Below, in pieces: positions 1,191-17,845 of a stretch of 33,653 bases of DNA. Origin of the DNA: a virus; IMG/VR virus record IMGVR_UViG_3300031962_000019, positions 1 to 33,653 of that record. The stretch is one strand, 5' to 3'. Numbering within the stretch: the first letter of the stretch is position 1; each line of letters opens with the position of its first letter. The notes under the pieces were generated by a model, which saw only the letters and a program-made list of their open reading frames with translations, was not told the DNA's origin and did not search any database. A program made the position numbers and the translations under genes.

Positions 1191-1251
1191 CATCAAAAAG
1201 GCCATCCTTCATTATGAAGCGATGGCCTATGCCACTAGGGGCTAAAGCACT
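1191..1251 (-). promoter_or_regulatory. Structured leader RNA element, copy 3 (ahead of tape measure gene)
   Basis: On the minus strand this starts with AGTGCTTTAG (1251-1242). Next comes a GCC/GGC mini-hairpin, then a 7-bp stem GGCCATC/GATGGCC (1227-1221 with 1206-1200) whose loop holds a further CTTCA/TGAAG stem. TTTTTGATG follows, so this copy looks like an intrinsic terminator or attenuator. The tape measure start codon lies about 100 bases downstream. The same decamer and hairpin layout recurs at 3546-3593 and 16453-16496. Function is inferred. Confidence 0.7.
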
Positions 1252-1274
1252 GGTTTCACTCTTTTTCTGGCACT

Positions 1275-1283
1275 ATTATAACA
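1275..1283 (-). promoter_or_regulatory. Extended -10 promoter ahead of tape measure leader
   Basis: The minus strand reads GTGTTATAATAG: a perfect TATAAT (1280-1275) preceded by TGT, an extended -10 motif. No TTGACA-like -35 box is visible 16-18 bases upstream. The predicted start site falls about 15-17 bases before AGTGCTTTAG of the leader. A near-identical motif lies ahead of the capsid operon (16517-16525) and at 32856-32864. Confidence 0.6.
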
Positions 1284-1304
1284 CGCTTGTGGCACGGTGT
1301 GGCG

Positions 1305-1529
1305 CTATGTTTGTGGTTCTTTTATCCGATCCTCAAGCTCCTCTTGCCTCTCCGCTTCAACTTCCCACCGAGCGACGATCCTGAGTCGCTGTCTAAGTGC
1401 AGTGGTTGCGGGTGCTGCCCTATAGCCGTGATAGCCACCAAAAAGCGGCCACAGTTCGCCCTCTATGATGTCAGGTGGTGATGACTCGCCAATTCGTAAC
1501 TCTCCACGGTATGCCCGTTTGCAGAGGGC
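1305..1529 (-). CDS. Frameshift extension of tail assembly chaperone (gpT-like part of gpGT)
   Basis: This reading frame has no start of its own. It is entered by a -1 slip at the T-TTT-TTG heptamer at 1535-1529. Continuing in the -1 frame from 1529 gives 74 residues ending at TAG 1307-1305. The fused product would be about 199 residues (125 + 74). The extension begins ALCKRAYRGELRIG and ends in a charged helical segment (VARWEVEAERQEELEDRIKE), as in other siphovirus gpT-like tails. It fills what would otherwise be an unexplained gap after the 146-residue chaperone. In lambda-type phages the short and long chaperones act together to load tape measure and tube subunits. The shift itself is inferred from sequence. 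Confidence 0.8.
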   Translation of the reverse strand, partial: ALCKRAYRGELRIGESSPPDIIEGELWPLFGGYHGYRAAPATTALRQRLRIVARWEVEAERQEELEDRIKEPQT

Positions 1530-1903
1530 AAAAAATCGTCCTGCTCCTCCTCGCTCATCGGCTGCGAAATCGCGTCAATCACCTCCAGGATGCGGTTGCT
1601 ATAATGGGCAGGCAACTTTCGCACGGTGTTTCTGTTAAATGGCACAGGCATCCCATTCTTCGTAAAGGTCCAGCGTAAAATCATGCGATCAAGCAGCGAG
1701 AATCGCCCGGTGCCCATCTGCACCTCGATGCTGGTATCCTTGCCTGTTGCTGTCTTGCTGTAATTGTTGGTCACGTACTCCTGATCCGCGACGGTGATAG
1801 AGCCTTTCAGGATGACCTGCTCGTGTGGCTCCCACCCCCATGACTTGCGTTCCTCCTCAGAGCGCGGAATGATCATCTCTGGTACGTCGTCAAATGCTCC
1901 CAT
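1463..1903 (-). CDS. Tail assembly chaperone, short form (gpG-like)
   Basis: This 146-residue protein sits between the tail tube gene and the tape measure gene, where gpG-type chaperones lie. The N-terminal part (VPEMIIPRSEEERKSWG) resembles a substrate-like start, followed by a mixed alpha/beta body and an acidic region MSEEEQDDF at residues about 115-124. Directly after the acidic region comes a slippery heptamer in the correct frame. The normal frame ends in a His-rich tail (ASHHHLTS). Family assignment rests mainly on position plus the frameshift arrangement; similarity by eye is weak. AGAGAAA upstream is a modest ribosome binding site. Confidence 0.75.
   Translation of the reverse strand: MGAFDDVPEMIIPRSEEERKSWGWEPHEQVILKGSITVADQEYVTNNYSKTATGKDTSIEVQMGTGRFSLLDRMILRWTFTKNGMPVPFNRNTVRKLPAHYSNRILEVIDAISQPMSEEEQDDFLPSANGHTVESYELASHHHLTS
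1529..1535 (-). promoter_or_regulatory. Programmed -1 ribosomal frameshift site T-TTT-TTG
   Basis: On the minus strand the normal-frame codons are GAT TTT TTG, giving the X-XXY-YYZ heptamer T-TTT-TTG in phase. A slip of one base backward re-pairs on TTT TTT and opens a 74-codon frame. The zero frame continues for another 21 codons to a stop at 1463. The position, near the end of a gpG-like gene and before the tape measure gene, is the one used by many siphoviruses. Confidence 0.78.
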
Positions 1904-1932
1904 ACTGTTTCTCTTTCTACGTATTGTTCAGT

Positions 1933-3543
1933 TTACGAGGCGTAAGTGGGCGGCTGTGTAGTCACCACGACCAACTTATACGCCGCTGCGATTCCCGAAT
2001 CGTACTCCGCGCGAAATTTTGCTTGAGCATACACGTTGCCCTTCGATGGATCTGATGTTACATCGAAATCTCCGTCGGTTTTGATTGGGAAGGTCCACGT
2101 CCAGCTTTTGAAGTAGTTCGTGCCTGCTGACGTGCCGATGTATTGCCCCAGGAATTGGAAGGCGAGATACTGTTTCAAGTTCTGCCTGAACTGTTCCCAT
2201 TGCAGCATGTCGGTAAAATCAAGCTTGGCATCCACCAGGCACTCGCGCTTTTGCGGGTAGGCACGGTTAAAGGTCTGGGTATTGGTAAAAGTAAAATGGT
2301 CTTCTTGTGGCACCTTGAGGTCCACCTTCAGTTCCTCGACTGCGGTATAGGCCGTGGTGAGCGATGTGCCAGTAATCGGATCGAGATACACGACCGTTTG
2401 CCAGCCGACCAGGGGTTGATCGTTGAGGTTGACCCCAAGCGACGCGATGCGGTTGGTACCAGAGAGCGGCGTCGTGGTGCGATCCCCGATGGGCAATTTA
2501 TCTTGTGCCTTCCCCTTCAATGTCAAGGTAGCCTCAGTCTGAACCTTGATGTCAAAGCTTCCATCCGTCGCGAAGCTGAAGGGATGTGTCCATGAGCCTG
2601 TACCGTCAAACCATTCCACAGCAGCGGTATAGAGTGCCTGCCCGCTGAGGAAGGTGAGCGACCAACCGAACACGCCAGTGATCGCCATAGTTGCCGCTGT
2701 GCTAGTGTTGGCGATGCCCGATGCATTGACCGAGCTATAGACGTTGGCGGAGTAGAAGGTACCTGCCCCAGTGATGGAGACAACCTCCGATGTGTTCGCG
2801 ATGCCGTTGACTGTCCCGGTAATGGTGAGTGTTCCCGCCACCGTGAATGACGTGATCGTGAAGATGAGGCGCATGCCTGGTGCGGTCGGTTGCGTCGCCA
2901 AACTTTGTGTTGATGAGATCGCCGCCGCCGCAAAGAGTGAGGTCGGCGCCGCCGGGATAGACGCGGTGGTCGTGGGTGCTCCCATCATCATGTACGGCCA
3001 CCAGAGCGAGATATCGGCGTACACGTCCTGTTTGATTTCATCAATCGTGGTGTTGTTGACTAACTGCAAGAGCTTTTTATCGCGCTCAATCAGCGAGTTA
3101 TGTTCGTTGGGGCTGTACGGCTTGATGAGGCGCTTCGATTTCATGATCGAGGGTATTTGGAACTTGCCCGCCTGGATGTAGTAGACAACAATCGTGCCGT
3201 TGGTGAGGCCGGTGGTCGTGATGTTAGTGATCGCGGTGTACGCGTTGGCGCTCACATACTCATTGTTGGCAAGTTGGGCACTCTGCGACTGTTGGGCGGT
3301 CGGTGCGGCAATGCTGTAGGTCTCGGTATTGTTCGGTGTCCCGGTCCCAGTGATAGTTACGGTGCCGCTGGTGGTCCAGTTTGAAATCTTGAGATAGTAT
3401 CTTACGCCCGTACTGCCCACGGGCGCAGTGATACCGGTCAGCGTCGCGATTACAGGCGTTGAGGCAAGAGCCAGTTGCAGGCCATTGCTTGCCTCCAGCA
3501 TAATATTGCAAATTCCCTTAGCTGCGGTAGCTGTGATGGGCAT
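1933..3543 (-). CDS. Major tail tube protein with two Ig-like/beta-sandwich domains
   Basis: This 536-residue protein is very Thr/Ser/Ala/Gly-rich. Two related beta-rich segments are visible. Residues about 40-123 contain WTTSGTVTITGTGTPNN, and residues about 215-292 contain FTVAGTLTITGTVNGIAN. They share the pattern T-x-x-GT-x-TITGT followed by a YSAN/YVSAN-like motif. The remaining segments (about 125-190 and 300-536) would form the tube fold, with WTHPFSFATDGSFDIK and YPQKRECLVDAKLDF. It sits directly before the tail chaperones, where the major tail protein is expected. The start is fixed by AAGGAG, which lies inside the leader hairpin 3546-3570. A minor role cannot be excluded, but size and position favour the tube subunit. 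Confidence 0.72.
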   Translation of the reverse strand: MPITATAAKGICNIMLEASNGLQLALASTPVIATLTGITAPVGSTGVRYYLKISNWTTSGTVTITGTGTPNNTETYSIAAPTAQQSQSAQLANNEYVSANAYTAITNITTTGLTNGTIVVYYIQAGKFQIPSIMKSKRLIKPYSPNEHNSLIERDKKLLQLVNNTTIDEIKQDVYADISLWWPYMMMGAPTTTASIPAAPTSLFAAAAISSTQSLATQPTAPGMRLIFTITSFTVAGTLTITGTVNGIANTSEVVSITGAGTFYSANVYSSVNASGIANTSTAATMAITGVFGWSLTFLSGQALYTAAVEWFDGTGSWTHPFSFATDGSFDIKVQTEATLTLKGKAQDKLPIGDRTTTPLSGTNRIASLGVNLNDQPLVGWQTVVYLDPITGTSLTTAYTAVEELKVDLKVPQEDHFTFTNTQTFNRAYPQKRECLVDAKLDFTDMLQWEQFRQNLKQYLAFQFLGQYIGTSAGTNYFKSWTWTFPIKTDGDFDVTSDPSKGNVYAQAKFRAEYDSGIAAAYKLVVVTTQPPTYAS

Positions 3544-3545
3544 CG

Positions 3546-3593
3546 GGCCACTCCTTATACGGAAATGGCCTATGCCACTGGGGCTAAAGCACT
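3546..3593 (-). promoter_or_regulatory. Structured leader RNA element, copy 2 (ahead of tail tube gene)
   Basis: Minus strand: AGTGCTTTAG (3593-3584), then CCCCAGTGGCATA. A hairpin follows, with GGCCATTTC (3570-3562) pairing with GGAGTGGCC (3554-3546), including G-U pairs. The 3' arm overlaps the Shine-Dalgarno sequence AAGGAG, and the ATG starts 2 bases after the hairpin. Folding would therefore hide the ribosome binding site of the tail tube gene. No clear extended -10 promoter is seen here; the upstream gene ends only 25 bases before the element. Confidence 0.7.
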
Positions 3594-3617
3594 TGGTGGA
3601 TGTTTAGATAAATATGC

Positions 3618-3848
3618 TTATTGCTGCGTCTCTATTGCCACAACAGGGATTTCTCCCTCTGGCACCTCTTCGATGATCGTCGGTGGACTGCCAGGCTCTA
3701 TCATAAGCCCCATCCTTACAATTTGTCCAGTATCCAGGTCCACCACGACCTTTTGCCCTGCGTGAAATTGTCCATCGGGACTGGTAGGGTTGGCGATCCC
3801 TGGAATGATACCCGTCTCATGAAAGGTGTAAGTTTGCAGATTACTCAT
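3618..3848 (-). CDS. Small protein of unknown function in tail cluster
   Basis: A 76-residue protein preceded by AAGGAGGATGTC-ATG, an excellent ribosome binding site. Its ATG overlaps the stop of the preceding gene by 4 bases (ATGA). The sequence is acidic and Pro/Gly/Ile-rich (DGQFHAGQKVVVDLDTGQIVRMGLMIEPG), suggesting a small beta-structure, and the C-terminus is rich in Glu/Pro/Val. No family is recognised. Position between tail-completion-like genes and the tail tube suggests a virion or assembly role, but that is only context. Confidence 0.7.
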   Translation of the reverse strand: MSNLQTYTFHETGIIPGIANPTSPDGQFHAGQKVVVDLDTGQIVRMGLMIEPGSPPTIIEEVPEGEIPVVAIETQQ

Positions 3849-4147
3849 GACATCCTCCTTACCCCTGCCATTCGTGCGTGTTGAGCTATACGGCGCTCAA
3901 CACGCCGTGCGATCTCATCGTAGTCTGCATCTGAGAGCGTTGAAGTAACGTGTGTTGGCGCGACCATCTCGCCTTCAATCTCATCGATATGGACAACTAG
4001 TCGTGCTTCACAAACGCCATTATTCACATCTGACGTTACCCAGTCCACACGCTTGACGTTTTGAATAGGCTCATCGGTCTCTGCATCATGGGCTGTTGCC
4101 ATATAGTGCGGTCCATGAAATTTGATCTTAATACGTTTTGGTATCAT
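3845..4147 (-). CDS. Hypothetical protein in neck/tail cluster
   Basis: About 100 residues from ATG 4147 (MIPKRIKIKFHG). This start is chosen because it overlaps the stop of the upstream gene by ATGA, although the frame is open further upstream. The N-terminal half is beta-rich with an acidic middle (VHIDEIEGEMVAP). The C-terminus is a basic amphipathic helix (YDEIARRVERRIAQHARMAG). No family is recognised. It is probably translated by coupling with its neighbours on both sides (ATGA overlaps at 4144-4147 and 3845-3848). Confidence 0.7.
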   Translation of the reverse strand: MIPKRIKIKFHGPHYMATAHDAETDEPIQNVKRVDWVTSDVNNGVCEARLVVHIDEIEGEMVAPTHVTSTLSDADYDEIARRVERRIAQHARMAGVRRMS

Positions 4148-4626
4148 GCGATGACTCCTGGTGGTGTAATAACCGCCCACTCTTGGCGCGTAAATATCCT
4201 TACACGGTATCCCCTAAGCCACTGCTCATTGCGCTTTACGTCAACATACATCCCTGACCCTGGCTTGATTTGCGCATGATACACAGTGCCAGCATTGCCG
4301 AGCGTAGCATGTGTCTGAAAGGGTACGACTAGTGCATCCCTGATCACATAAATTTGCTGTGCCTGTACATTGGTATCCTTTGATACCAATGCCAAGAGCA
4401 TCCATTCCTGCTCATCTTTCACTTTACCGCCGAAATTCTTATGCTGGCTATCGTCGGCGGTGCCGTAAATCTCTAAGCAGGCTCCTGTCCCTGCGACTAA
4501 ATTTGTAACATCCTTGATTTCCTCAATGGATACCTGAGCAAAACTTTGTCCAGTTCCCCATGTTAGAGATTGCATGTATCCTTGAATTGCTGCCAAAATA
4601 GCAGGGCTGTTGGGTGAGTTTGCCAT
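4144..4626 (-). CDS. Probable neck or tail-terminator-type protein
   Basis: A 160-residue protein that begins at ATG 4626, overlapping the previous stop by one base (TAATG). It sits directly after the HK97 gp10-like gene and ahead of the tail tube, where tail terminators and tail-completion proteins are encoded. The central part (DEQEWMLLALVSKDTNVQAQQIYVIRDALV) and the C-terminal strand-rich part (GYRVRIFTRQEW) fit an alpha/beta tail-completion fold. No diagnostic motif is visible, so the role comes from gene order. Confidence 0.55.
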   Translation of the reverse strand: MANSPNSPAILAAIQGYMQSLTWGTGQSFAQVSIEEIKDVTNLVAGTGACLEIYGTADDSQHKNFGGKVKDEQEWMLLALVSKDTNVQAQQIYVIRDALVVPFQTHATLGNAGTVYHAQIKPGSGMYVDVKRNEQWLRGYRVRIFTRQEWAVITPPGVIA

Positions 4627-5048
4627 TACAGAGGCACCCCCAACTTCGCAATGGCTTCCGCTACGGCGAGGCTCATCATGACCGCAATCTTATCGCTATC
4701 AGCCTCCAGTGTCGGCATCGCGTATGGCTTGCCCTCTTCATCATAGACGCGACCCAGGCTATCCGCGCCGTGAAAGCCTTCCTCCATCCTCCAGCTATAT
4801 GGAACGTCTACCTCAATATTCACCGCCATTGGGCCGCCCGTTACCGCACGAATATTGTCAGCGAGATTCCCGGTCGGATTGGCGAACACGCTCCAGGTCA
4901 TCGATTGCATATCAGGCACCAGCATATCGCCAATCTGGATCATCGTGCCGCCCACTTCCGCCTCAAGGATCGCCTGAAATCCAGCGAACCGGGCGATGGT
5001 GCCAAGGCTAGCCTCGTCAAATGCTGCTGTAATGAGTGGATCAGCCAT
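4626..5048 (-). CDS. HK97 gp10-like neck/tail-completion protein
   Basis: About 140 residues. Start taken at ATG 5048 (MADPLITAAFDEAS), with GGGAGTTGAC just before it and one base after the previous stop; the open frame runs further upstream but lacks a site. The C-terminal motif MEEGFHGADSLGRVYDEEGK followed by YAMPTLEADSDKI is the characteristic HK97 gp10-type pattern, in which the aromatic-Gly and D-x-x-GR-x-Y residues precede a final Pro. Such proteins sit at the neck/tail end in siphoviruses. The helical C-terminus (VMMSLAVAEAIAKLGV) also fits. Confidence 0.75.
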   Translation of the reverse strand: MADPLITAAFDEASLGTIARFAGFQAILEAEVGGTMIQIGDMLVPDMQSMTWSVFANPTGNLADNIRAVTGGPMAVNIEVDVPYSWRMEEGFHGADSLGRVYDEEGKPYAMPTLEADSDKIAVMMSLAVAEAIAKLGVPL

Positions 5049-5049
5049 G

Positions 5050-5376
5050 TCAACTCCCGCGTTGCCGCACGCAAACCCATCTCCAGCTACCGGTGAGCGG
5101 GTTTGGTTCGGGATCACTAATAATCAGATATTTACGCAATGCATTCGTAATCGGGTCAATCACGACTTGATCTATCACATAATCACGGAAGAGCACTAGT
5201 TGCGGGTTTCCCATTGGTAACATGAAAGTGAATGCGTTGTACGTAAAATGTGGGTCGCTCCCCTGGAAAGACGCTGCTTCCGCTGCCTCCATTTTGTCCA
5301 GTTGTACCACGAAGTTTTTTGCAATCGGATTCGCAACCCCTGCACGTGTAATGATGGCCTGGACAAATTCGCTCAT
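5050..5376 (-). CDS. Probable head-closure (neck) protein
   Basis: A 108-residue protein between the adaptor-like gene and the gp10-like gene, the usual slot for the head-closure (stopper) protein. The C-terminal half (RDYVIDQVVIDPITNALRKYLIISDPEPN, then GSWRWVCVR) matches the common pattern in these proteins of a defined-reference/units strand, an ISDPE turn and a final strand with W-x-W. A weak GGAG lies 11 bases before the ATG. Assigned from position plus pattern, without a catalytic motif. Confidence 0.6.
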   Translation of the reverse strand: MSEFVQAIITRAGVANPIAKNFVVQLDKMEAAEAASFQGSDPHFTYNAFTFMLPMGNPQLVLFRDYVIDQVVIDPITNALRKYLIISDPEPNPLTGSWRWVCVRQRGS

Positions 5377-5379
5377 GTG

Positions 5380-6288
5380 CTAATGCGTCTCCACTGCATA
5401 CTTTGCCAGTATCTTGAGTGCTCGCTTGATTAGGATCGATTCCCCTGTCATGTCACCACGTAGCACCGCAGAGAGATGTACACCACCACTGCCAATCTCA
5501 GGCGCACCAATCGGGTTGTTACGTTTGGCTAACAGGTCAGATGTTGCCAGAATTGTCGCCTCCTTCAAGTCTCCTGGTAATGCGCTATAGGTATATCCCG
5601 CACTATACGTCACAAACAAATCCGCTTCTGTGTTTCTATCGAATGGCACCTGCACCAGATTGGTCGGCTGGTTTTGCTGCTGCTGGTTCCCAGGCAAAGC
5701 AACTAGTGTGCGAATGCTACAGAGCCGATGATTGCCGTCATAGGAGATTGTACTTGTGTCATAGCTCACGTTGAGTTGTGACGCCGTGGTGATCGATAGC
5801 CCTGTGACACTCACCACAGGCCAGTGACGTGGGCGAAACATCAGGCTCCCGCGATTGCTAATACAGGCGCGCGGCGTCGGCATGGTCAGTTGTTCAGTAG
5901 TATAGGTGGTGAGTAAAAGCGACTGGTAGCACTCTTTCTCCATCCACCCGGAAGCCGCGATAATCTGAGTTGCTAAACTTCCGAGCACTCCGTCAGTGCA
6001 GTATGGTGTACCATTCACATGCCCAAATGTCGTCGCCGTGGTCGTGATACTCGATGCTCCTACTACTGCCGTCGTGGTTGCGGTCACAATTTCTGTACTT
6101 GAGCCATCAAATATACAGATTTCATCATCCTGGTTGATCTGCACTGTCAAGTTAGGACGCACTGGCAGCGACGTAACACCGAGGGCAAGCGTACTGTTGA
6201 GTCTGCCGGTATTTCCAACGAGACTGCCCCACTCTAAGCCAGAGGTTGCGCGTTGCCAATCAACCCAGGAGATGTACGTATTGACCAC
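5380..6288 (-). CDS. Head-tail adaptor/connector-like protein with extended N-terminal beta domain
   Basis: A 302-residue protein with a GTG start at 6288, fixed by GGAG 7 bases upstream. The last third (SAGYTYSALPGDLKEATILATSDLLAKRNNP, then a Gly-rich loop and helix ending LKILAKYAVETH) is the usual helical core of gp6-like head-tail adaptors. In these, the L-P-x-DL-x-x-A motif precedes a long helix. The first two thirds are Thr/Ser-rich beta, which is longer than usual for the family (often about 100-200 residues). It is the first neck gene after the decoration block. High confidence in a connector role, moderate for the exact class. Confidence 0.75.
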   Translation of the reverse strand: MVNTYISWVDWQRATSGLEWGSLVGNTGRLNSTLALGVTSLPVRPNLTVQINQDDEICIFDGSSTEIVTATTTAVVGASSITTTATTFGHVNGTPYCTDGVLGSLATQIIAASGWMEKECYQSLLLTTYTTEQLTMPTPRACISNRGSLMFRPRHWPVVSVTGLSITTASQLNVSYDTSTISYDGNHRLCSIRTLVALPGNQQQQNQPTNLVQVPFDRNTEADLFVTYSAGYTYSALPGDLKEATILATSDLLAKRNNPIGAPEIGSGGVHLSAVLRGDMTGESILIKRALKILAKYAVETH

Positions 6289-6291
6289 TGA

Positions 6292-6651
6292 TCAACTCCA
6301 AATGATAGTCATAGCCGGATTTGCAGCATTTCCCGCCACGGTTATTCCAAGAGAGGCTGGAGCCTGGCACTCAACCATCGTGCCTGCAACCGCATTAGCC
6401 GCAACAGCCCCGATAATCGTGCCCGTATGCCCACCAGCGTTGTCGTAGATCGCGACCGCACCCGTCCCGGCCGTCGTCACCAGCACACGACAGAGACGCC
6501 CCTGACTGGTCTTCACGGTCGTATCCGCCGTCGCCCCGGCCGTAATGGACTGCGTGAATGTCCCGGCGACGAGCCACCCGTTCGCATCGACTAACATCGT
6601 GGGTTGTGAGACGAGCGGCGATCCCGAAATGCTTTGTTGTCCCGCAGTCAT
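6292..6651 (-). CDS. Small beta-sandwich protein, homologous to the C-terminal module of the 712-residue adhesin-like protein
   Basis: A 119-residue protein with AGGAGAAAGTT before the ATG. Most of it (from about residue 35) aligns by eye with the last 80 residues of the protein encoded at 9968-12106. Shared landmarks are a GRL-x-RVL strand, AIYDNA/LIYDNA, GT-x-IGA and P-A-x-LGIT near the end, with a final I-x-WS/V-x-WS. It is therefore a free-standing copy of a beta-sandwich module, probably a decoration or adhesin-tip domain on the virion. The function of the module is unknown. Confidence 0.75.
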   Translation of the reverse strand: MTAGQQSISGSPLVSQPTMLVDANGWLVAGTFTQSITAGATADTTVKTSQGRLCRVLVTTAGTGAVAIYDNAGGHTGTIIGAVAANAVAGTMVECQAPASLGITVAGNAANPAMTIIWS

Positions 6652-6705
6652 AACTTTCTCCTACTCCATAGCTTACTTTTAATCTCACTCTTACAAAAAA
6701 GTAGG

Positions 6706-7581
6706 CTACTCTTCTGTCCACTCGACATACACGTCGCAACTTCCACCCGTTAGCGTGACAGCGTTCAAATTGATTGAGATGCTTTGTGTAATACCTCGCA
6801 AGACATGGGCCTGACTTGGGCGGTTGCCGTAGTCCATGATGACTTTATCGGAAGATGAGGTGGTGGCGGCTGCGGCTACAAAGACTTTGGCAGCGAAAAG
6901 ATTGCCGACTGTTGTACCAAGTGAAGCGGGGTTGGCGGTATAGGTCTGCACCAGGGCTGACGCCGTTGGATTATTCGAGTCGTTGGCAACAATGTTAGCC
7001 GCGCCCGATGTACCAGCCGATTGTGTGCCGCCGCTGCGCTTGATCACCTGCACGTCGATACTACCTGCCGTGGTTTGCAGCGCAGAGAAAACCAATCTGG
7101 TAAGGCGAACCGTCTTTGATGCCGATCCGGTGAGGTTGAACACATCGGTCGGACTAGCGGCAGGTGCCAGGCCAATGATGGCAAAGGAAAAGGTAGCCTT
7201 GCCTCCATCAATCGCGCTCGTGACCGATGGCACCATTGCAGGCGGATTGGAGGCTGCGGCAACATAGGTCGTCGTGCCTGCGCCTGCACTATCGGTATAG
7301 GACACGAGGCCCGCCGCCACATTGGCAAGGAGCGCGCCATTTTTTAGGACGCGATAGCCGCCCGTTGCGGCAGGAATGGCAATCCATGAGACGGTATTGT
7401 TTGCCGTGGACGCATTGTTTGCGGCGGTCGTGGTTGCCGCAGATGGTACGGAGTCCTGCCCTGCACCATTCACAGCAACGATAGCGTAACTAATTGCGGC
7501 CCCTGCGCCAACCGCGTTTTGCAGTACTGTTGGTGCGGCAGGACTGGCAAGTAGATCGACTGCACCTGGATTTAAAGGCAT
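6706..7581 (-). CDS. Virion decoration-like protein with fibronectin III-like domain
   Basis: About 291 residues from ATG 7581, chosen because AAGGAG lies 6 bases upstream; the frame extends 10 codons further without a site. The N-terminal ~110 residues (SYAIVAVNGAGQDSVPSAAT ... YRVLKNGALLANV ... YTDSAGAG) read as one fibronectin III-like domain, as is common in phage surface proteins. The middle and C-terminus are beta-rich (IDVQVIKRSGG, SISINLNAVTLTGGSCDVYVEWTEE). A surface or adhesion role is inferred from position after the adhesin-like paralogues and from composition. Confidence 0.65.
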   Translation of the reverse strand: MPLNPGAVDLLASPAAPTVLQNAVGAGAAISYAIVAVNGAGQDSVPSAATTTAANNASTANNTVSWIAIPAATGGYRVLKNGALLANVAAGLVSYTDSAGAGTTTYVAAASNPPAMVPSVTSAIDGGKATFSFAIIGLAPAASPTDVFNLTGSASKTVRLTRLVFSALQTTAGSIDVQVIKRSGGTQSAGTSGAANIVANDSNNPTASALVQTYTANPASLGTTVGNLFAAKVFVAAAATTSSSDKVIMDYGNRPSQAHVLRGITQSISINLNAVTLTGGSCDVYVEWTEE

Positions 7582-7611
7582 AAGAGACTCCTTGTTTTTT
7601 AGAACTAACAT

Positions 7612-9963: not shown

Positions 9964-9967
9964 ACGA

Positions 9968-12106
9968 TTAACTCCAACTCACGGTAATAGTGCCAGCACT
10001 GGCGGTTGCCGCAATCGTGATGCCAAGCGCGGCTGGCATCTGAAGATCGAAGACTTGACCAAGAGTCGCAGTCGTCGGGATCGCTCCAATCACCGTGCCA
10101 GAGGCTGCCGAGGCATTATCGTAAATGAGAATAGCATTGGTCGCATTGGCCGTTGAACAGAGTACACGAGCGAGCCGCCCCGGTGTCGCCTTGATGACTG
10201 TCAGCGAGGTAGGTGTGACCTGCGTGGTCTGCAATCCGCCATTGGTGACCGATGCCTCCCCTGCGGTGTTCCCCTGGAATACGCGCGCAAACCCCACGTT
10301 CGCACGATCATTGAGCAAGATTCCCTCAAAGCCCTCACCTGTCCAGAGCACCGGATTTTGTCCAGGCCCATTCGCGCCAAAGGCATCCCAGGTCGCCAGC
10401 GTTTGCGAGGCGTTGACGACGGGCGAGGTCAGCGGGACGGTAGCGGGTGCAGCGGCAATGACATAGGAGTCAGCCACACGCACATACTCATTAGTGCCTG
10501 ATCCTGAGAGACGTATCCAACACCCAGGCGTCAGGGTCGCACCGTTGGCAGGTGTCGTCAGGGTGATGCTGGTGTTGCCCGCCGTGGTGCTGGTGATTGC
10601 ATAACCAGCACCGGCATTGACCGCGACCTTGCCAAGCGCCGCCACTTCACGGTCATACTGCAACTGTGATGGTGTACCGTTTGCGAGTGCAGGACCACCA
10701 GAGGCGTATTCATACTCAGCAGCAACGGCGGTCCCTTTGCCGCTCGCCCCTGAGTTTTCCCCAGATGCATCACGCTCCTGATTGAGCATAAAGCCTGTCA
10801 CGGCATAAGATGGCGTATGGGTATGCAGGAATGATGGCGCAGCAGGCGATCCATTGGTCGGTATCACGGTCGCAGTACTGCCAGATGGGAGCGCTGTCAC
10901 CACTACCGTTTCCGCGTTCGCGCCCGTATCTACCGTGAGGATAGCACCGACCTGGATACCCGTCATCGATGCGGGGGTGATCGTGCCAGATGCCCCGCCT
11001 GTGGTCAGCGTCCCGGTTGTCGGCACAGTCGTTGCAAAAGCTTGTGCGAAGGCGGTCGCGCCTAGACTGACGCCAAGCGGTGAGATTTGATCCTGCCCTG
11101 CTTCTCTCTGCCGATCCAGATTGCCAAGCGGGTTAATGAGTTGTGCGACACCACCAGTTAGCAAGCCATAGGAGGCCGGTGAAGTCGGCAGTGCCTGATT
11201 GTCCGTGTTGTGCAGCGCGGTAATGGTGGCTTTCCTCCACGGAAACACGCCATCGCTCATCTGTGAATTGTTGCGTGCCGTATCACCCACCCAGACGCTG
11301 TTGATTTGGAGTTGCACGTTGGACACAGGAGGCGTCGCAGCGCCAACGGCCATGAACTTGAGTGGCAGCGCATTGACATTGGGACCGAGTGCGCCAGAGG
11401 GAATCGATGCAACCACGTTATCCAGGGAGTCGATACACCAGAGAATGTTGTCACCCCGGTAGAAAATGAAATACTTGTGGACATTACTGTCCTGTGGTTG
11501 CTTCCCACTTCCAGAAGCAAGGGAAAGGTCAGCAATGGCTTGACGAGTGCCAGTCTGCCAGGTGACCGCATACATCTTGCCCGTGATCGCGACTTCAAAG
11601 CCTGCTGCTTCTGTCAATGGAGCGGTGGTAGTCGGCGTTGCGGGCGAGGTGGCAAATCCCCAGAACCTGTAGGAATTGACCACAATCGGGAATTCGAGGT
11701 TGATGGTGGCGGCAAATTTGAGATAGCCGGGATTAGCCTGCAAGAAGTTAAATTGACTGGTCAGTACGCTATACCCGTTGGCGACCGTGCCCGTTCCGAG
11801 CCGGGTATCTGCCACCTCTGAGACGGCAGCCACGCCTGAGTTGCCGCTAGTCGGAGTCAACCAGCGATTCGTAGTATCCAACCCTGTATCGAAGGCGTCA
11901 TAGAAAATCTGTGACGGTTCCAGAGCCACGCGCAACTCTCCAGGCGCAAAGACGGTGGCACTGTACGGGTCACCCGATGGTCCGATGATCTGCGTTTGTA
12001 TACTTTCGGTGCCGCCCTGGGTGATCGGATTCCCGTTCGAGTCGGTAAGAAAGACCGGCTTGGCTTCCTGCGGATAGGGCAACACGAACTCTTGTGGTGC
12101 TGGCAT
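9968..12106 (-). CDS. Large adhesin/fibre-like virion protein, paralogue B
   Basis: 712 residues, ATG 12106 with GAGGAG 8 bases upstream. Its N-terminal half matches paralogue A (7612-9963) block by block, so the two genes come from a tandem duplication. The C-terminal module is different and instead matches the free-standing 119-residue protein at 6292-6651. The sequence is poor in Lys and rich in Thr/Ala/Gly/Pro, as in secreted or virion beta proteins. It follows a 145-residue gene by 2 bases and precedes paralogue A by 4, so all are likely co-translated. Confidence 0.75.
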   Translation of the reverse strand: MPAPQEFVLPYPQEAKPVFLTDSNGNPITQGGTESIQTQIIGPSGDPYSATVFAPGELRVALEPSQIFYDAFDTGLDTTNRWLTPTSGNSGVAAVSEVADTRLGTGTVANGYSVLTSQFNFLQANPGYLKFAATINLEFPIVVNSYRFWGFATSPATPTTTAPLTEAAGFEVAITGKMYAVTWQTGTRQAIADLSLASGSGKQPQDSNVHKYFIFYRGDNILWCIDSLDNVVASIPSGALGPNVNALPLKFMAVGAATPPVSNVQLQINSVWVGDTARNNSQMSDGVFPWRKATITALHNTDNQALPTSPASYGLLTGGVAQLINPLGNLDRQREAGQDQISPLGVSLGATAFAQAFATTVPTTGTLTTGGASGTITPASMTGIQVGAILTVDTGANAETVVVTALPSGSTATVIPTNGSPAAPSFLHTHTPSYAVTGFMLNQERDASGENSGASGKGTAVAAEYEYASGGPALANGTPSQLQYDREVAALGKVAVNAGAGYAITSTTAGNTSITLTTPANGATLTPGCWIRLSGSGTNEYVRVADSYVIAAAPATVPLTSPVVNASQTLATWDAFGANGPGQNPVLWTGEGFEGILLNDRANVGFARVFQGNTAGEASVTNGGLQTTQVTPTSLTVIKATPGRLARVLCSTANATNAILIYDNASAASGTVIGAIPTTATLGQVFDLQMPAALGITIAATASAGTITVSWS

Positions 12107-12108
12107 AT

Positions 12109-12546
12109 CTATTGCTCCTCCTCTGGCAGATCAGCCAGCAGGATAATCTCACGGATGTATTGGCTATGCAGATAATGCTGTTTCGCGCGCGGTGGCTTTG
12201 GGCGTGCCGCACCCTCGATCGGGATAAAGAAGTTGGCGACTTCAGGATTGATCAGGGCACGCACAAGCGAGACAGGGAGCGACTCATCGAATGCGCGCAC
12301 GCCATCGGCATCAGAGCAATCGATACATAGGCGCACCAGGATCTTATCTTCACCAGGCGCACCAGAGAGGGCGTGGCGCTGATAATCGAGTGCACTCCAA
12401 CTACTCTGTGCTGGAGGTCCAGATGGCGGTGTATCAGTGGGCGTCACCGCCTGTGCAGCAGATGAAAACGATGGTGATCGTTTCTCTTTGGCCAGGTTAT
12501 CTGCTGCTCTCAGCGTCTTGTGTGATGATCGTGTTGCGCTTACCAT
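12109..12546 (-). CDS. Hypothetical protein downstream of capsid
   Basis: A 145-residue protein with GGGAG 6 bases before its ATG. The N-terminal ~50 residues are a Ser/Pro/Ala-rich unstructured stretch. The rest (DKILVRLCIDCSDADGVRAF ... VANFFIPIEGAARPKPPR ... YIREIILLADLPEEE) is a mixed fold with no family recognised. It is encoded 2 bases before the large adhesin-like protein. A role as anchor or accessory to the surface proteins is possible but unsupported. Confidence 0.7.
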   Translation of the reverse strand: MVSATRSSHKTLRAADNLAKEKRSPSFSSAAQAVTPTDTPPSGPPAQSSWSALDYQRHALSGAPGEDKILVRLCIDCSDADGVRAFDESLPVSLVRALINPEVANFFIPIEGAARPKPPRAKQHYLHSQYIREIILLADLPEEEQ

Positions 12547-12582
12547 GTGTCACTCCCTGCTCTCTGTGGACTACTCAGACTC

Positions 12583-12819
12583 CTATGCACTCGGCACGTG
12601 GTTCCAGGTGTGCACGCCACCTGTTGCGGAGTGTGGTACACTCGCGTGATGCGTGCCATCATGCGTCTTCAGATGAGCTACACCATGAGGGGTCAGATCC
12701 TCAATAGTCGCCTCGTGTTGCTGATTCTGAGGGTCAGTGTAGTGAACCGTGTGTCCCGGTGCTGTATGCTTACCGTTGATGACATGGCCGGAACGGGCGC
12801 TACTTGTATAGTCTGCCAT
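12583..12819 (-). CDS. Small His-rich protein of unknown function
   Basis: About 78 residues from ATG 12819 (MADYTSSARSGHVINGKH), chosen because AGGGGA lies 7-8 bases upstream; the frame continues 16 codons further without a site. His makes up about one residue in six (PGHTVHYTD, HEATIEDLTPHGVAHL, THHASVPHSATGGVHTWNH), arranged in strand-like alternation. This suggests a metal-binding or small beta-barrel protein. It is the first gene after the capsid terminator hairpins. No family is recognised. Confidence 0.65.
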   Translation of the reverse strand: MADYTSSARSGHVINGKHTAPGHTVHYTDPQNQQHEATIEDLTPHGVAHLKTHDGTHHASVPHSATGGVHTWNHVPSA

Positions 12820-12883
12820 GATGTGTTTCCCCTTTGACCACTTCCGCTCTAGAAGGCGTGTGGACAACGAAAATGAACTTAGG

Positions 12884-12926
12884 CTCTATGCTTAAACTGT
12901 CCTCGCAAGCCAGTTTAAGCATAGAG
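12884..12926 (-). terminator. Perfect 16-bp hairpin downstream of capsid gene
   Basis: CTCTATGCTTAAACTG (12884-12899) and its exact complement (12911-12926) are separated by 11 bases. On the minus transcript the hairpin is followed by CCTAAGTTCATTTTCG, only moderately U-rich. It may act as a leaky terminator or as an RNA stabiliser for the abundant capsid messenger. Confidence 0.7.
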
Positions 12927-12941
12927 TTACTAATGCGTCAT

Positions 12942-12968
12942 TTGGTTAACTAGCCATTTGTTAACCAA
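12942..12968 (-). terminator. Second perfect hairpin just after capsid stop codon
   Basis: TTGGTTAAC (12942-12950) and GTTAACCAA (12960-12968) form a 9-bp stem with a 9-base loop, starting 9 bases after the capsid stop. No T-run follows, so transcript stabilisation or processing is as likely as termination. Confidence 0.5.
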
Positions 12969-12977
12969 GTCTGCCGA

Positions 12978-14654
12978 TTAAACGCCAGCAGCCGGTTGAA
13001 TACCTTCAAGAATTCCCCAACCACCCTGGAATTGGTTCACCAACGTTTCGTCGACAAAAATTCCGAATCCCCACGTCTGCGGGCTGGCCTGTGTGGGCGG
13101 ATAATCGATGCTGGTGTAATCCTGGTTGATCATGAGCCTGAAGGGCGGGTCTTGCACATCGGGTGCGGGATACGGGATACTGAACGAGCCAGCGACCACC
13201 GTTCCTTGCGGCAAGTAGGGCAGAGTCACGACCTGCACCGTAGTACCCGTCACCTGATTGAGAATGTGCGTTACCTTCTGGCCTGCAACCAGGCTGGAAA
13301 TGCCGCCTGCACTCTGCGGTTCCGCCAGAATGCGGAAGTTGCTAGCAGTCCCGATCAGGTTGTCGATGGTGACCGCTTCCACAGGAGAGACAAACAGGTG
13401 TGACGGTTCAGCCATTGCCTGGCTGAACATCTTGCGGAAGAGCAACTGTAGATCCTGCAAGATCATCAGTCCACTGGTCTGCGAGGGCTGCACGATCACT
13501 GATGTCATCCCTTGCTCACCAACGGAGAGGCCGGTGCCTGCATTCGGGTTGAGGTAGCAGAGGCTCACCATACCGTCAAAGAGATTGGTCGCAGCCGTTG
13601 CGGTGCTCGTGGTCAGCGGGTTAGCACCCGTGGTAGGTGCAACCTTGAGCACCGTTGAAAGCGCCATAGAGCCAATGTAATCAGCAGGTTGGACAGGCAA
13701 TGCGCCAGATACCAGATCGCCAGTGACACAAATGAACATATTGGAGTTGGTCGGTTGTGTTGATCCGGTCCCGATGTAGATGTTATATCCAGTCGCGCCG
13801 ATGACCCCTGACCAGTTAATCGTGATACTGCCCGTCGAACCTGTGACCGGAACACTCACAATCGAGCTAGGGAGCGTTTCGCCTGCCGCATTGGTCGCGC
13901 TGATCTGGACCCAGTAGGTCGCAGTTGCGAGGCTTCCACCTGTGGTCGATGCAGTCAGCAATGGGCGAGCAGGACGCCAGATCTTTGTAGCGCCATTAAC
14001 GAGCCAGTTTTCCTCTTGCAATTTCAGGGCGTATACGAGTTCGACTTTACGTCGGGCCAGCATATCACCTTCCAATGCACGCGAGCGCCATTGGCTCTGG
14101 AATGTCACGCTGTTGTACTCGGCAATAGTCTGGTACGTTGCGGTATAGTTGTTCAGTACATAGACTGGACTATCGATGGTAGCACTGCCATCGGTTGTGC
14201 CACCCCAATGGCTCTGGCTGAATGGGCCACCCTGGTTGAAGATGGAAATGACACTTTTCCAGTGCTCAATATCGGTGCCACGTCCAACCATGCGCGGTGT
14301 GAGTTGTACCATCGGAGCTTGTACCGGAAAGATGACCTTTGCCGGGGTCTCCAGCACATACGGCGTGAATCCGGTTGATGTGGTGATTGCACGTTGCACG
14401 TCGCCCTGTGCCTGTTGGACCGTATCAGCGATCAGTTTAGAGCTGAATGGGCCGATCTGGTCACGGCGCATCGGGGCAATGCTGCGCGTCTCTTCTGCCG
14501 TCTGTAACATATCGCCATAGCGATGCTGATCGAGCGTGCGGATGTAGTTCATACTCTCCGCTGCCATGCGTGGATCGGGTCGATACGCATTGGCGCTCAC
14601 AATCGCATCAGGCGGTGTTTGTTCGCGGTGGATAACCGCAGGGGCGTCTCCCAT
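12978..14654 (-). CDS. Major capsid protein with inserted fibronectin III-like domain
   Basis: A 558-residue protein encoded 9 bases after the protease/scaffold gene, where the HK97-fold capsid protein is expected. The parts before residue 225 and after about 325 have the capsid-like mix of helices and strands, including the segment QSQWRSRALEGDMLARRKVELVYALKL and the region LVAGQKVTHILNQVTG-TVQVVTLPYLP. Between them, residues about 226-325 (TATYWVQISATNAAGETLPSS ... WSGVIGATGYNIYIGTG) read as a classic fibronectin III-like Ig domain, probably displayed on the capsid surface. The protein is longer than typical (about 300-450 residues), explained by that insertion. Hairpins directly follow the stop. 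Confidence 0.85.
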   Translation of the reverse strand: MGDAPAVIHREQTPPDAIVSANAYRPDPRMAAESMNYIRTLDQHRYGDMLQTAEETRSIAPMRRDQIGPFSSKLIADTVQQAQGDVQRAITTSTGFTPYVLETPAKVIFPVQAPMVQLTPRMVGRGTDIEHWKSVISIFNQGGPFSQSHWGGTTDGSATIDSPVYVLNNYTATYQTIAEYNSVTFQSQWRSRALEGDMLARRKVELVYALKLQEENWLVNGATKIWRPARPLLTASTTGGSLATATYWVQISATNAAGETLPSSIVSVPVTGSTGSITINWSGVIGATGYNIYIGTGSTQPTNSNMFICVTGDLVSGALPVQPADYIGSMALSTVLKVAPTTGANPLTTSTATAATNLFDGMVSLCYLNPNAGTGLSVGEQGMTSVIVQPSQTSGLMILQDLQLLFRKMFSQAMAEPSHLFVSPVEAVTIDNLIGTASNFRILAEPQSAGGISSLVAGQKVTHILNQVTGTTVQVVTLPYLPQGTVVAGSFSIPYPAPDVQDPPFRLMINQDYTSIDYPPTQASPQTWGFGIFVDETLVNQFQGGWGILEGIQPAAGV

Positions 14655-14663
14655 GATAATTCT

Positions 14664-16445
14664 TTATCTCCCATTGCCGCTGTACTGCGCTGCGCGTTTG
14701 CGTTCGAGGTACAGCACGGCATCTACTTGTTGATTTTTGTTCAAAATGCCTGCCCGTGAGAGTTGCTCCACCATGCGCGTTTCTTGAGTGAGTGGATCAT
14801 CTGTGTAGGCAGTCTGGTTGTGGAGTGCTGCGGAATTGATCAATGGGCCACCTGGCATCGGCTGCGCGGCAATCTTCTCGACTAAATCTTTTACCCCCGT
14901 CAGAACGGAGCGTACTTCATCTAGCTCGGTAAATTTCTGCTCAATAGCCCCAAGTCGGCGCGCCAATTCAGGGTCAGGTGTGACTGTTTGTGTAACCGTG
15001 GTCATGGTGGGCGTCTCAGTGGTGGCAAGGCGCGCGGCAATGCCATTCATCCGGGTGATGATCGGTGACAGGTGCCTGATCATTTGGGCCTCGACATACT
15101 TCAGCACGGTCGAACCATCACCGGACCCATTCCCACTTGCGCCACCATGATCGTTGTCAGTATCCAAGCTTGGAATAATATCGATATCGCCATCACCGTC
15201 AGGATCAAGGACTTTGAGGGCACTCTGGCATTCATCACAGGAACAATTTGCCAACTGCTCGCGTAGTCCTTGCATGGCGTGATCGCGGGATTTATGCATA
15301 GAAGTCATCGTATGCGCACCGACACGAGCGCCAATGCGGGTGATGTCTGGAGTAGTTTGCTGTTTTGTGGGCTGCTCTATCTCTTCGGAAAAGTCCAGGA
15401 TATCCGTGGCGAAACCGTCAGCACGGACCACCTTCACATCACAACCAGGACAGGACGGATTATCAACCAGAGAGACTTCTACGAGGTCGTAGCGCTCCAG
15501 GTACGGTACTTCCTTCCCATTCCATACCTTCTTGCCCCATTTGCCGTTACGCGCGCCAATAGAGGCACCCGCAAGTGTGCCATCAAGCACCTTCTCCCAG
15601 GTATCCTGCGCGCCTTTACTGACTCTGAGCACAATGTCGATGGCTTTGTCATCCTCGACCGGCTCCCACTTGAGCGCGCGCCCAACGGCTTTCGTTGGAT
15701 CGTGCATCTCACGGATGTTGCCGCGCCACTTGGCAAAGGCTTCTTTTGAGCCATCAAAGGAGATGACCGTCTCGTAGCTGTCAAAGGCTTCGGCAGTGGC
15801 ACGGACAACCACTTCACGCTTTTGCCGATCCACACGCAAAATAGGGGCATAGATGGATGTTTCAGTGGGCAGGGAACGCAGGATATCAGGGGTTGCGGCC
15901 TTTTGCGTATTGCTGCTCTCTTCACCTTTGGCTTTCCAGTCTCCGTCAAGGTGGGTATGTTCGTGATCGTGACTCGCATCGTTATGGTGGGTATGTTCGT
16001 GATCGTGTGTGTCATCTCCACCCTGTGAACCGAGGGCGCTGTGCGGGTGACTGTGCGTACCGCTAAACGCAGCATGGGTACCATCGGGATTGATGACCAA
16101 CCCTGGATCTCGTTCACGTGTCAGGTCAGGCGTTGAGGCGGTTTCTTTTTTGCCGTCTTCCTCATCCTGCCAGGTTTGCGGAAGAGTAAAACCTTTACGT
16201 TTGGCGATTCTGATGGCTTTCGCTTTGACCTCAGCGGGATCTGCTGCATGTCCGATGAGGTGGGCCGCAGCGTCTAAATGGGCCTGTGTGTCGATGGGGA
16301 ATGATTGGTCAGGACCAGCGAAATCCGAATCATCGATGGCATCTCGCTCTTTTTGTGAAAGAGACCGCGCAATGCCAAGGTGCTGACAGAGAGTTTCTGT
16401 TGCAGGAGGATATATTTCAATGCGCGTGAGCGTATTTTGGGGCAT
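14664..16445 (-). CDS. Prohead protease fused to scaffold, with His-rich linker
   Basis: About 593 residues. Numbers here count from a GTG at 16457; ATG 16445 (MPQNTLT, residue 5) is the more likely start because the GTG lies inside a leader hairpin. Order: an N-terminal SDFAGPDQSFPI-type module (residues 43-90); a His-rich linker with two HDHEHTH runs (132-172); a U35-type prohead protease (205-345) with the His of REMHDPTKAVGR (252) and the Ser of LAGASIGAR (299) as probable catalytic residues; a Cys cluster and the loop DPDGDGDIDI (about 403-427) resembling a calcium loop; and a C-terminal helical scaffold (450-597). It cleaves or guides capsid subunits during head assembly. The ribosome binding site lies in the leader hairpin. 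Confidence 0.88.
   Translation of the reverse strand: MPQNTLTRIEIYPPATETLCQHLGIARSLSQKERDAIDDSDFAGPDQSFPIDTQAHLDAAAHLIGHAADPAEVKAKAIRIAKRKGFTLPQTWQDEEDGKKETASTPDLTRERDPGLVINPDGTHAAFSGTHSHPHSALGSQGGDDTHDHEHTHHNDASHDHEHTHLDGDWKAKGEESSNTQKAATPDILRSLPTETSIYAPILRVDRQKREVVVRATAEAFDSYETVISFDGSKEAFAKWRGNIREMHDPTKAVGRALKWEPVEDDKAIDIVLRVSKGAQDTWEKVLDGTLAGASIGARNGKWGKKVWNGKEVPYLERYDLVEVSLVDNPSCPGCDVKVVRADGFATDILDFSEEIEQPTKQQTTPDITRIGARVGAHTMTSMHKSRDHAMQGLREQLANCSCDECQSALKVLDPDGDGDIDIIPSLDTDNDHGGASGNGSGDGSTVLKYVEAQMIRHLSPIITRMNGIAARLATTETPTMTTVTQTVTPDPELARRLGAIEQKFTELDEVRSVLTGVKDLVEKIAAQPMPGGPLINSAALHNQTAYTDDPLTQETRMVEQLSRAGILNKNQQVDAVLYLERKRAAQYSGNGR
15950..16007 (-). repeat. 22-bp perfect direct repeat within protease gene
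   Basis: The same 22 bases occur at 15950-15971 and 15986-16007 (period 36). They encode the two HDHEHTH runs of the His-rich linker and fit a short in-frame duplication of 12 codons. This is a coding repeat, not a CRISPR or regulatory repeat. Confidence 0.85.
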
Positions 16446-16452
16446 GAAGAAA

Positions 16453-16496
16453 GCCACCTCTCTCGAAGTGGCCTACGTCACAGGGACTAAAGCACT
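16453..16496 (-). promoter_or_regulatory. Structured leader RNA element, copy 1 (ahead of protease-capsid operon)
   Basis: Minus strand: AGTGCTTTAG (16496-16487), then TCCCTGTGACGTAG. A perfect 8-bp hairpin follows: GCCACTTC (16472-16465), loop GAGA, GAGGTGGC (16460-16453). The 3' arm contains the GAGAGAGG ribosome binding site of the protease gene, whose ATG lies 7 bases further on. The mini-stem reads GTC/GAC here but GCC/GGC in the other two copies, a compensatory change that supports RNA folding. Its 5' end is only about 14 bases after the predicted transcript start. Confidence 0.75.
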
Positions 16497-16516
16497 ATAC
16501 TCATGATATTGGTTGT

Positions 16517-16525
16517 AGTATAACA
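16517..16525 (-). promoter_or_regulatory. Extended -10 promoter of protease-capsid operon
   Basis: The minus strand reads GTGTTATACTAC: TATACT (16522-16517) preceded by TGT. No convincing -35 is visible. It matches the motif ahead of the tape measure gene (1275-1283) at 10 of 12 bases and lies 20 bases upstream of the leader element. A phage-specific or extended -10 promoter for late structural genes is inferred. Confidence 0.6.
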
Positions 16526-16567
16526 CGGTTCTTGTCAGGATGCTAGATTGTGCTACGAAGAAAACGT

Positions 16568-16597
16568 AGGGGTAGCCGTTGGTGCGGTACTACCCCT
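16568..16597 (-). terminator. Hairpin terminator after the small regulatory operon
   Basis: AGGGGTAG (16568-16575) and CTACCCCT (16590-16597) form an 8-bp stem with a 14-base loop. On the minus transcript it is followed by ACGTTTTCTTCG, a partly U-rich tail. It lies 9 bases after the stop at 16607, separating this operon from the capsid promoter. Confidence 0.65.
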
Positions 16598-16606
16598 CAT
16601 TCTTTA

Positions 16607-17080: not shown

Positions 17081-17452
17081 TTAAACATAATTCCTGCCGT
17101 GGTTTTCGCCTCCACACTGGCAGTCGCATGACGGGCCAACCGCACCCATGCACTTTGCTCCACACTTATGGGACTCGCTGTAGTGACCTTGCACCTGTCC
17201 ACCTTTGGGAAGATTGCACCCACACTCAGGGCAACACAGCGCACCCATCACGTCATTGGTATAAGAACGACGGCCACCGTCAGAGCGGTCGGCACGATCC
17301 TCGCGCTCACCCTGCTTTAGTTCGCGTGTTCCATGTTTACCACCATATAGGGATGTTCCCTCTTCGCGATATTCCAACGCCCATACATGTTTGCAATTGC
17401 GATTTCGGCACTTGAAGATCGCTCGAAATGTAGTGGTGGTTGCTGTCGTCAT
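17081..17452 (-). CDS. Zinc-binding protein with C-terminal CxCxCGGxNHG motif
   Basis: About 123 residues from ATG 17452, chosen because AAGGAG lies 7 bases upstream; the ATG two codons earlier is only one base from that site. Metal-binding Cys pairs occur at FKCRNRNCKHVW and ALCCPECGCNLP. The C-terminus has the compact motif HKCGAKCMGAVGPSCDCQCGGENHG, a pattern I have seen in small phage and actinobacterial proteins of unknown function. The middle is highly charged. It is the first gene after the consensus promoter and probably binds two or three zinc ions. Role unknown. Confidence 0.75.
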   Translation of the reverse strand: MTTATTTTFRAIFKCRNRNCKHVWALEYREEGTSLYGGKHGTRELKQGEREDRADRSDGGRRSYTNDVMGALCCPECGCNLPKGGQVQGHYSESHKCGAKCMGAVGPSCDCQCGGENHGRNYV

Positions 17453-17490
17453 TTTCATTCTCCTTTGTTTTATTCATACCTCTTGTCTTA

Positions 17491-17634: not shown

Positions 17635-17832
17635 CTAGATTGTGCTACCAACCCGTTCTCGATGTCGCCGTTGCCACTCTTCCCAGGTGACGATATGCTC
17701 ATGCTTGCAGTGTCGACACCGATAGCGTAACCCCTCCTCTACCCAGAAGAATTGGACAGAGTTGTCAGTTGGGCACCGCAGTTTATGAGACTCAGCGATT
17801 TTCACCGAGGGTGACTGAGATTGGTCAAGCAT
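17635..17832 (-). CDS. Small zinc-ribbon protein
   Basis: About 65 residues from ATG 17832 (MLDQSQSPSVK), preceded by AGGGGGAAGTATA; the frame continues 10 codons upstream without a site. Two CxxC-type sites, KLRCPTDNSVQFFW and YRCRHCKHEHIV, form a zinc ribbon. The C-terminus is a basic helix (EEWQRRHRERVG). It follows the exonuclease gene and ends at the strong hairpin 17588-17619. The fold is likely; the function is unknown. Confidence 0.7.
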   Translation of the reverse strand: MLDQSQSPSVKIAESHKLRCPTDNSVQFFWVEEGLRYRCRHCKHEHIVTWEEWQRRHRERVGSTI

Positions 17833-17845
17833 TATACTTCCCCCT

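Follow-up and report, generated by a model that had tools for sequence, protein, structure and literature searches.

The window, our term for the whole 33.7-kb stretch of viral DNA analysed, carries the sequence AGTGCTTTAGYCCC exactly three times, always on the minus strand, starting at positions 1251, 3593 and 16496 (Table 1). With two mismatches allowed, no further copies appear in the window; shuffles average 0.25. In each copy, a 3-bp mini-stem and then a strong hairpin come after AGTGCTTTAGYCCC, with a start codon close behind. The original prediction of three copies of one structured leader is thereby confirmed, including the mini-stem, which reads GUC/GAC in the copy at 16496 and GCC/GGC in the other two, and the positions of the terminal hairpins. 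Two of the genes that it placed behind these copies, the head maturation protease and the tape measure, were identified through PHROG profiles (the latter by PHROG 991, 1.3e-43). The third is called a tail tube by gene order only, because its 536-aa protein matches no family.

Between the third leader copy and the tape-measure gene lies a 33-aa open reading frame (ORF) that had not been foreseen. The tape-measure ATG itself, at 1088, has its own ribosome site. The region of the short ORF (1193–1086, minus strand) holds a second hairpin and a T6 tract, at about 1148–1113, just before this ATG, and the two hairpins in series possibly form a leader-peptide attenuator. Elsewhere in the window (19491–23261, minus strand), a 1,256-aa portal protein is fused to a 2′-5′ RNA ligase/LigT-like domain at residues ~577–717.

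Table 1. Positions of the leader copies, their parts and the neighbouring genes in the window
Feature	Coordinates	Strand	Basis or details
Source record (G000)	whole window, 33.7 kb		IMG/VR virus record; leader copies all on minus strand
Small zinc-ribbon gene, 75 aa, Com-like; proposed trans-acting factor	17635–17862	−	profiles; role inferred
Intrinsic terminator of preceding genes, upstream of protease promoter	16564–16602	−	−18 kcal/mol hairpin and T-rich tail
−10 promoter element TATACT (extended, TGTTATACT), protease leader	16517–16522	−	sequence
Leader copy, protease	16452–16500	−	R1 57.8 bits, E 5e-16; R1 seed
Parts of protease leader	5′ element from 16496; mini-stem 16487–16485/16479–16477; terminal hairpin 16473–16452	−	hairpin followed by UUUCUUC
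Head maturation protease, first gene behind leader 16452–16500	14664–16445	−	ATG 16445–16443; PHROG 9427, 4.9e-31
Leader copy, tail-tube-like gene	3546–3597	−	R1 64.4 bits; R1 seed
Parts of tube leader	mini-stem 3584–3582/3576–3574; hairpin 3570–3546	−	SD AGGAG in 3′ arm; no U-tract
Tail-tube-like gene, behind leader 3546–3597	1933–3543	−	ATG 3543; gene order; relatives L084–L098
−10 promoter element TATAAT (extended, TGTTATAAT), tape-measure leader	1275–1280	−	sequence
Leader copy, tape-measure region	1200–1255	−	R1 40.7 bits, E 1.9e-10; not R1 seed
Parts of tape-measure leader	mini-stem 1242–1240/1233–1231; hairpin 1227–1200; U5 at 1199–1195	−
33-aa ORF directly behind tape-measure leader	1092–1193	−	ATG after hairpin opens ORF

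Because an initial pattern search across viral contigs yielded nothing but chance matches, relatives were sought through neighbouring proteins (capsid and tube) and with a covariance model; exact-pattern scans of IMG/VR also returned mostly chance matches. The nearest relative, G001 (67.6 kb, capsid 81%), carries diverged copies ahead of its tube gene and its fibre-like gene, and its protease is preceded by a weaker, rearranged copy. Near the fibre-like gene, two neighbouring tRNA-Sec-like matches (L200:2447–2618) fall below the gathering score. A looser pattern scan added L122, in which the leader precedes a protease of only 38% identity. The covariance model R1, built from four copies, found the leader in L097, L116, L144, L147, L150, L153, L162 and L171 (E ~1e-3 to 1e-8), in every case directly before the protease start, and a second model, R2, run on 40 whole records, confirmed this set and extended it to L158 (E 5e-7 for its record), where, as in L122, the leader again directly precedes the protease. 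Altogether, the leader is found in about ten diverged phages, with capsid proteins down to ~30% identity, and nearly always directly before the prohead protease. Relatives whose protease closely follows the preceding gene have no leader. Upstream of the leader's terminator in L158 (692–760) stand four tandem AAGAGCC units, which look like a multiplied 5′ element, and in L140 and L163 a 12-codon ORF overlaps the protease start.

The hosts are probably Ktedonobacteria, soil bacteria of the Chloroflexota. Related capsid genes occur in 13 of 47 Ktedonobacteria genomes, presumably in prophages, and the prophages of this kind that were examined have neither the leader nor the zinc-ribbon gene described below. 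A model search of the 47 genomes gave no convincing leader copy; the matches L224–L226 were dismissed as chance, being coding sequence or lacking the 5′ part. A Ktedonobacteria genome, G074, has two capsid genes 40 kb apart with identical capsid-profile scores (C1:5065915–5067492 and C1:5106102–5107679), which might belong to a prophage that is duplicated or in tandem. Our literature search turned up no description of a Ktedonobacteria phage.

Several observations establish that the copies share an RNA structure. First, in an alignment of 13 copies, which was fitted to the model's structure and so leans towards it, 96.3% of the cells are paired, and double-sided changes affect 11 cells in 5 pairs. 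The covariation score of 0.355 compares with 0.195 (s.d. 0.026) in shuffles, none of 500 of which reached it, and sliding the 3′ partners along the alignment lowers pairing to at most 57%. Second, in a hand-made alignment read with the stem in mind, 37 of 39 mini-stem pairs are kept, a result reached in none of 20,000 permutations (1.5e-4 with nine representatives). The mini-stem occurs as GCC/GGC, GUC/GAC, GUC/GGC, GUA/UAC, GCG/CGC, GCG/UGC and GAA/UUC, with L144 as the exception. Third, G–U pairs are present in all three helices, which together with the compensatory changes points to an RNA rather than a DNA palindrome. Sequence conservation is concentrated in the 5′ element (AGAGCC/AGUGCU..UAG) and in CAUAGGCC. 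The three copies and their relatives are one conserved, covarying structured RNA located before late genes.

This structure bears on two alternatives that do not involve a protein binding to RNA. The 5′ element and the AGNGGCRYAG that follows it form an approximate direct repeat, and GTAG or ATAG precedes the hairpin, which might suggest an operator acting at the DNA level downstream of the promoter, or a repeat of the IS605/REP type. The G–U pairs and compensatory changes speak for RNA, however, and the covariance-model matches always have the same orientation, ahead of late gene starts; this alternative is largely contradicted and we give it hardly any weight. The original prediction had raised an IS605/REP origin as a possibility and had proposed a covariance-model search as a check. 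That search returned homologous matches with compensatory changes ahead of late genes; the matches are not scattered, and all clear ones precede late gene starts, contrary to such an origin. The prediction's failure to recognize a known class also stands, as no Rfam covariance model matches at its gathering score. With a conserved unpaired 5′ element, a mini-stem and a platform hairpin, the leader has the layout of a ligand-binding riboswitch whose expression platform is a terminator or ribosome-site hairpin. Against this, the receptor part spans only ~25 nt, the mini-stem sequence varies freely, and the element is restricted to one phage group, with no match in the 47 host genomes, making a riboswitch extremely unlikely.

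Some further pairings and motifs proved less general. The alternative hairpin GTGGC-ATAG-GCCA, which had been proposed to open the last one, is present in the window but is not conserved, being incomplete in 7 of the 13 copies. Some minimum-energy folds pair the start AUGCC with GGCAU; this pairing was dropped because AUGCC is protein-driven (an MPI start is also found in leaderless tube relatives) and is missing from other copies. TRAP-like (G/U)AG repeats are not kept by the window copies. By contrast with the incomplete alternative hairpin, the GCY of the 5′ element could, in 13 of 13 copies, pair with the RGC at the start of the terminal hairpin, in columns that are nearly invariant (permutation 0.38).

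A TATAAT or extended −10 element lies within 55 nt upstream of 8 of the 13 copies, whereas random windows of the same loci average 0.25 and never reached 8 in 2,000 draws; the other five copies have no recognizable −10 in the 70 nt upstream. The terminal hairpin, at about −13 to −23 kcal/mol, contains in 12 of 13 copies the only Shine–Dalgarno (SD)-like sequence (AAGGA, AGGAG or AGGUGG), mainly within the 3′ arm and 4–14 nt before the start codon, although the arm sequence differs between copies. A U-rich tract and then the start codon follow the hairpin in 11 of 13 copies, the exceptions being the two tube copies. A hairpin covering the ribosome site had been expected in the protease and tube copies of the window and a U-tract in the tape-measure copy. 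Both features are there, and neither is confined to those copies: the 3′ arm in the tape-measure copy also has an SD-like sequence, and the protease copy is also U-rich (UUUCUUC).

The leader holds the stable GC-rich hairpin and U-tract of an attenuator as well as the paired ribosome site of a sequestering element, and the R2 type combines attenuation with a hidden ribosome site. Judged from these sequence features, the terminal hairpin is quite probably the OFF state in vivo, as attenuator, as hidden ribosome site or as both. Because relatives without an R2-type leader often still have a promoter and a terminator-like hairpin before the protease, we regard attenuation as the broader theme; in several of them (L140, L142, L145, L163 and L165), this hairpin is clear of the protease ribosome site. 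Control could instead be purely translational, with the hairpin hiding the ribosome site, the U-tract incidental, and the ribosome, a virion protein or temperature shifting the balance. Such control would explain why the SD sequence stays in the 3′ arm in 12 of 13 copies despite covariation of the arms, and why the tube copies retain a buried SD and not the U-tract. We nevertheless consider it improbable, given that U-tracts are kept in all non-tube copies and that related leaders have their ribosome site outside the hairpin.

Two adjacent stem-loops near a promoter, as seen in 8 of 13 copies, would also suit a put-like element, in which the nascent RNA modifies RNA polymerase to ignore terminators further downstream. 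This idea, one of the mechanisms originally offered, loses ground because a recognizable promoter is missing just upstream of 5 of 13 copies and the hairpin carries the ribosome site; the hairpin itself looks like a terminator, and the leader matches no Rfam family in sequence. Overall, we judge a put-like element very unlikely. A ligand switch, also among the mechanisms offered, gained no positive support, and a protein-binding operator or antiterminator fits best.

A candidate for the binding protein is encoded close by. A small zinc-ribbon gene lies within ~1.6 kb upstream of the protease in 9 of the 9 leader-bearing phages with enough upstream sequence, a count favoured by the zinc-ribbon profiles having been built partly from such phages. 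The profiles also match phages with other leaders. The leader occurs in none of 19 phages or prophages without the zinc-ribbon gene (Fisher 2.6e-4), and a terminator-like hairpin stands before the protease in 16 of 17 with the gene versus 7 of 19 without it (4e-4), where the hairpin scored for the window is the terminator that precedes the promoter. The capsid tree implies at least 5 changes of state of the gene; across independent pairs, gene and hairpin move together in 2.9 and in opposite directions in 0.1, so that the co-occurrence is not significant once phylogeny is counted, because five pairs cannot reach significance. In the window, a strong terminator behind the zinc-ribbon gene is followed by a perfect TTGACA-17-TATAAT promoter for two small genes (17619–17491, minus strand). 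Between the zinc-ribbon gene and the protease lies a second small cysteine-rich protein of 125 aa (17081–17458, minus strand; PHROG 6842), which is unrelated to the zinc-ribbon protein by profile comparison.

The zinc-ribbon protein has a distant resemblance to Com of phage Mu, which activates translation of mom when it binds a small stem-loop next to a hairpin that conceals the start region (PMC6483171). In an hhalign comparison, Mu Com is matched with 90.2% probability and 27% identity over 30 columns, versus 0.6% for a control protein, and a profile of the zinc-ribbon group picks up Mu Com at E 0.007. We do not claim membership of the Com family because the curated Com families, which recognize Mu Com, recognize no protein of the group: 0 of 12 zinc-ribbon proteins match PF10122 (Zn_ribbon_Com) even at E 10, where Mu Com scores 2.7e-9, and none matches the PHROG 13819 and 6417 Com profiles. 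Most members keep the second CxxC/CxxH pair, the first pair is down to one Cys in most, and several proteins are without one or more zinc ligands. Neither a fold search with the predicted zinc-ribbon structure nor a search of solved structures gave a significant match. The Com site defined by selection is a loop motif, CC(N)2–3GAG, carried on a hairpin whose stem is 3–4 bp long and variable (PMC6483171). This motif occurs in three mini-stem loops (G001 tube, G001 fibre and L153) and is absent in most mini-stems; the window copies have GUG instead of GAG in both repeats. On balance, the zinc-ribbon protein is a credible candidate for the effector of the leader, one that we hold with slightly less than even confidence.

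Taken together, these features suggest a model, to which we lend about even confidence, in which the leader RNA would keep late virion genes OFF until a trans-acting factor, proposed to be the zinc-ribbon protein, opens the hairpin. In most copies, transcription would start at a strong −10 promoter ~10–30 nt upstream, and the nascent RNA would present the conserved 5′ element and the variable 3–4-bp mini-stem first and the GC-rich hairpin next. Left unopened, the hairpin, with the SD sequence in its 3′ arm and usually a U-tract, would terminate transcription and/or hide the ribosome site. The zinc-ribbon protein, encoded upstream of the protease operon, would bind the 5′ element and mini-stem and so prevent or melt the hairpin, allowing read-through and translation of the protease–capsid, tube, fibre and tape-measure genes. 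One possible route is pairing of the GCY of the 5′ element with the RGC in the 5′ arm of the hairpin; were this fold held, the terminal hairpin would be excluded.

The same hairpin might be an attenuator opened in another way, by a host factor, by another phage antiterminator or by translation of the short ORFs found after some leaders. The hairpin and U-tract of 11 of 13 leaders are as expected from such an arrangement, as are the short ORFs behind the window's tape-measure leader and the L140 and L163 leaders; and in L140, L142, L163 and L165 the terminator-like hairpin is clear of the protease ribosome site, pointing to termination as the common theme. The co-occurrence of the zinc-ribbon gene with the leaders and the tube copies without a U-tract count against it, and we view an opener of another kind as unlikely, though deserving serious attention. 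More widely, a divergent Com-like zinc-ribbon lineage could switch on the late genes across an entire group of Ktedonobacteria phages, working in trans on leaders that unite a terminator with a hidden ribosome site, so that one small protein would release the capsid, tube, fibre and tape-measure operons together; we rate this wider proposal as somewhat less likely than not.

To our knowledge, late-gene switching in phages outside the well-studied hosts is mostly undescribed, and no account of a leader like this one came up in our literature searches. The present result provides a strongly covarying RNA family absent from Rfam and a testable candidate partner protein. It raises the possibility of a second role for RNA-binding zinc ribbons of the Com type, in the control of virion genes and perhaps through termination as well as translation, and a small protein–RNA pair of this sort would be a candidate tool for switching gene expression.

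The leader RNA family is new and represents, as a kind of system, a variant on attenuation or translational activation under protein control. In the RAT leaders of BglG, LicT and SacY, a 5′ hairpin overlapping the 5′ arm of a terminator is stabilized by an RNA-binding protein. Our leader may similarly have a 5′ element that overlaps the 5′ arm of its putative terminator and would be stabilized by an RNA-binding protein, but it matches them neither in sequence nor through Rfam, its terminal hairpin contains the ribosome site as well, and the putative competing pairing is short. The put RNA of phage HK022 likewise consists of two neighbouring stem-loops near a promoter, as in our leader, which differs in not always being promoter-proximal, in its terminator-like terminal hairpin and in sequence. 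At the late promoter pR′ of lambdoid phages, the terminator tR′ lies close behind and must be overcome by Q for virion genes to be expressed. The close succession of late promoter and terminator is shared, whereas RNA covariation, a buried ribosome site and a separate leader for each late operon set the present system apart, and no Q-like protein was identified. The SAS/ESAS elements of cluster K mycobacteriophages are reportedly repeated just before start codons, as the leader copies are; the leader, however, is unrelated in sequence, covaries as RNA stems, follows promoters and precedes late structural genes. Mu Com/mom shares a small phage zinc-ribbon protein and a target RNA whose inhibitory hairpin hides the translation start and is overlapped by a short stem-loop of variable sequence immediately on its 5′ side (PMC6483171). 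Unlike mom, the leaders precede capsid and tail genes, occur in several copies per genome and have a hairpin that is also terminator-like, and their candidate proteins fail the Com models.
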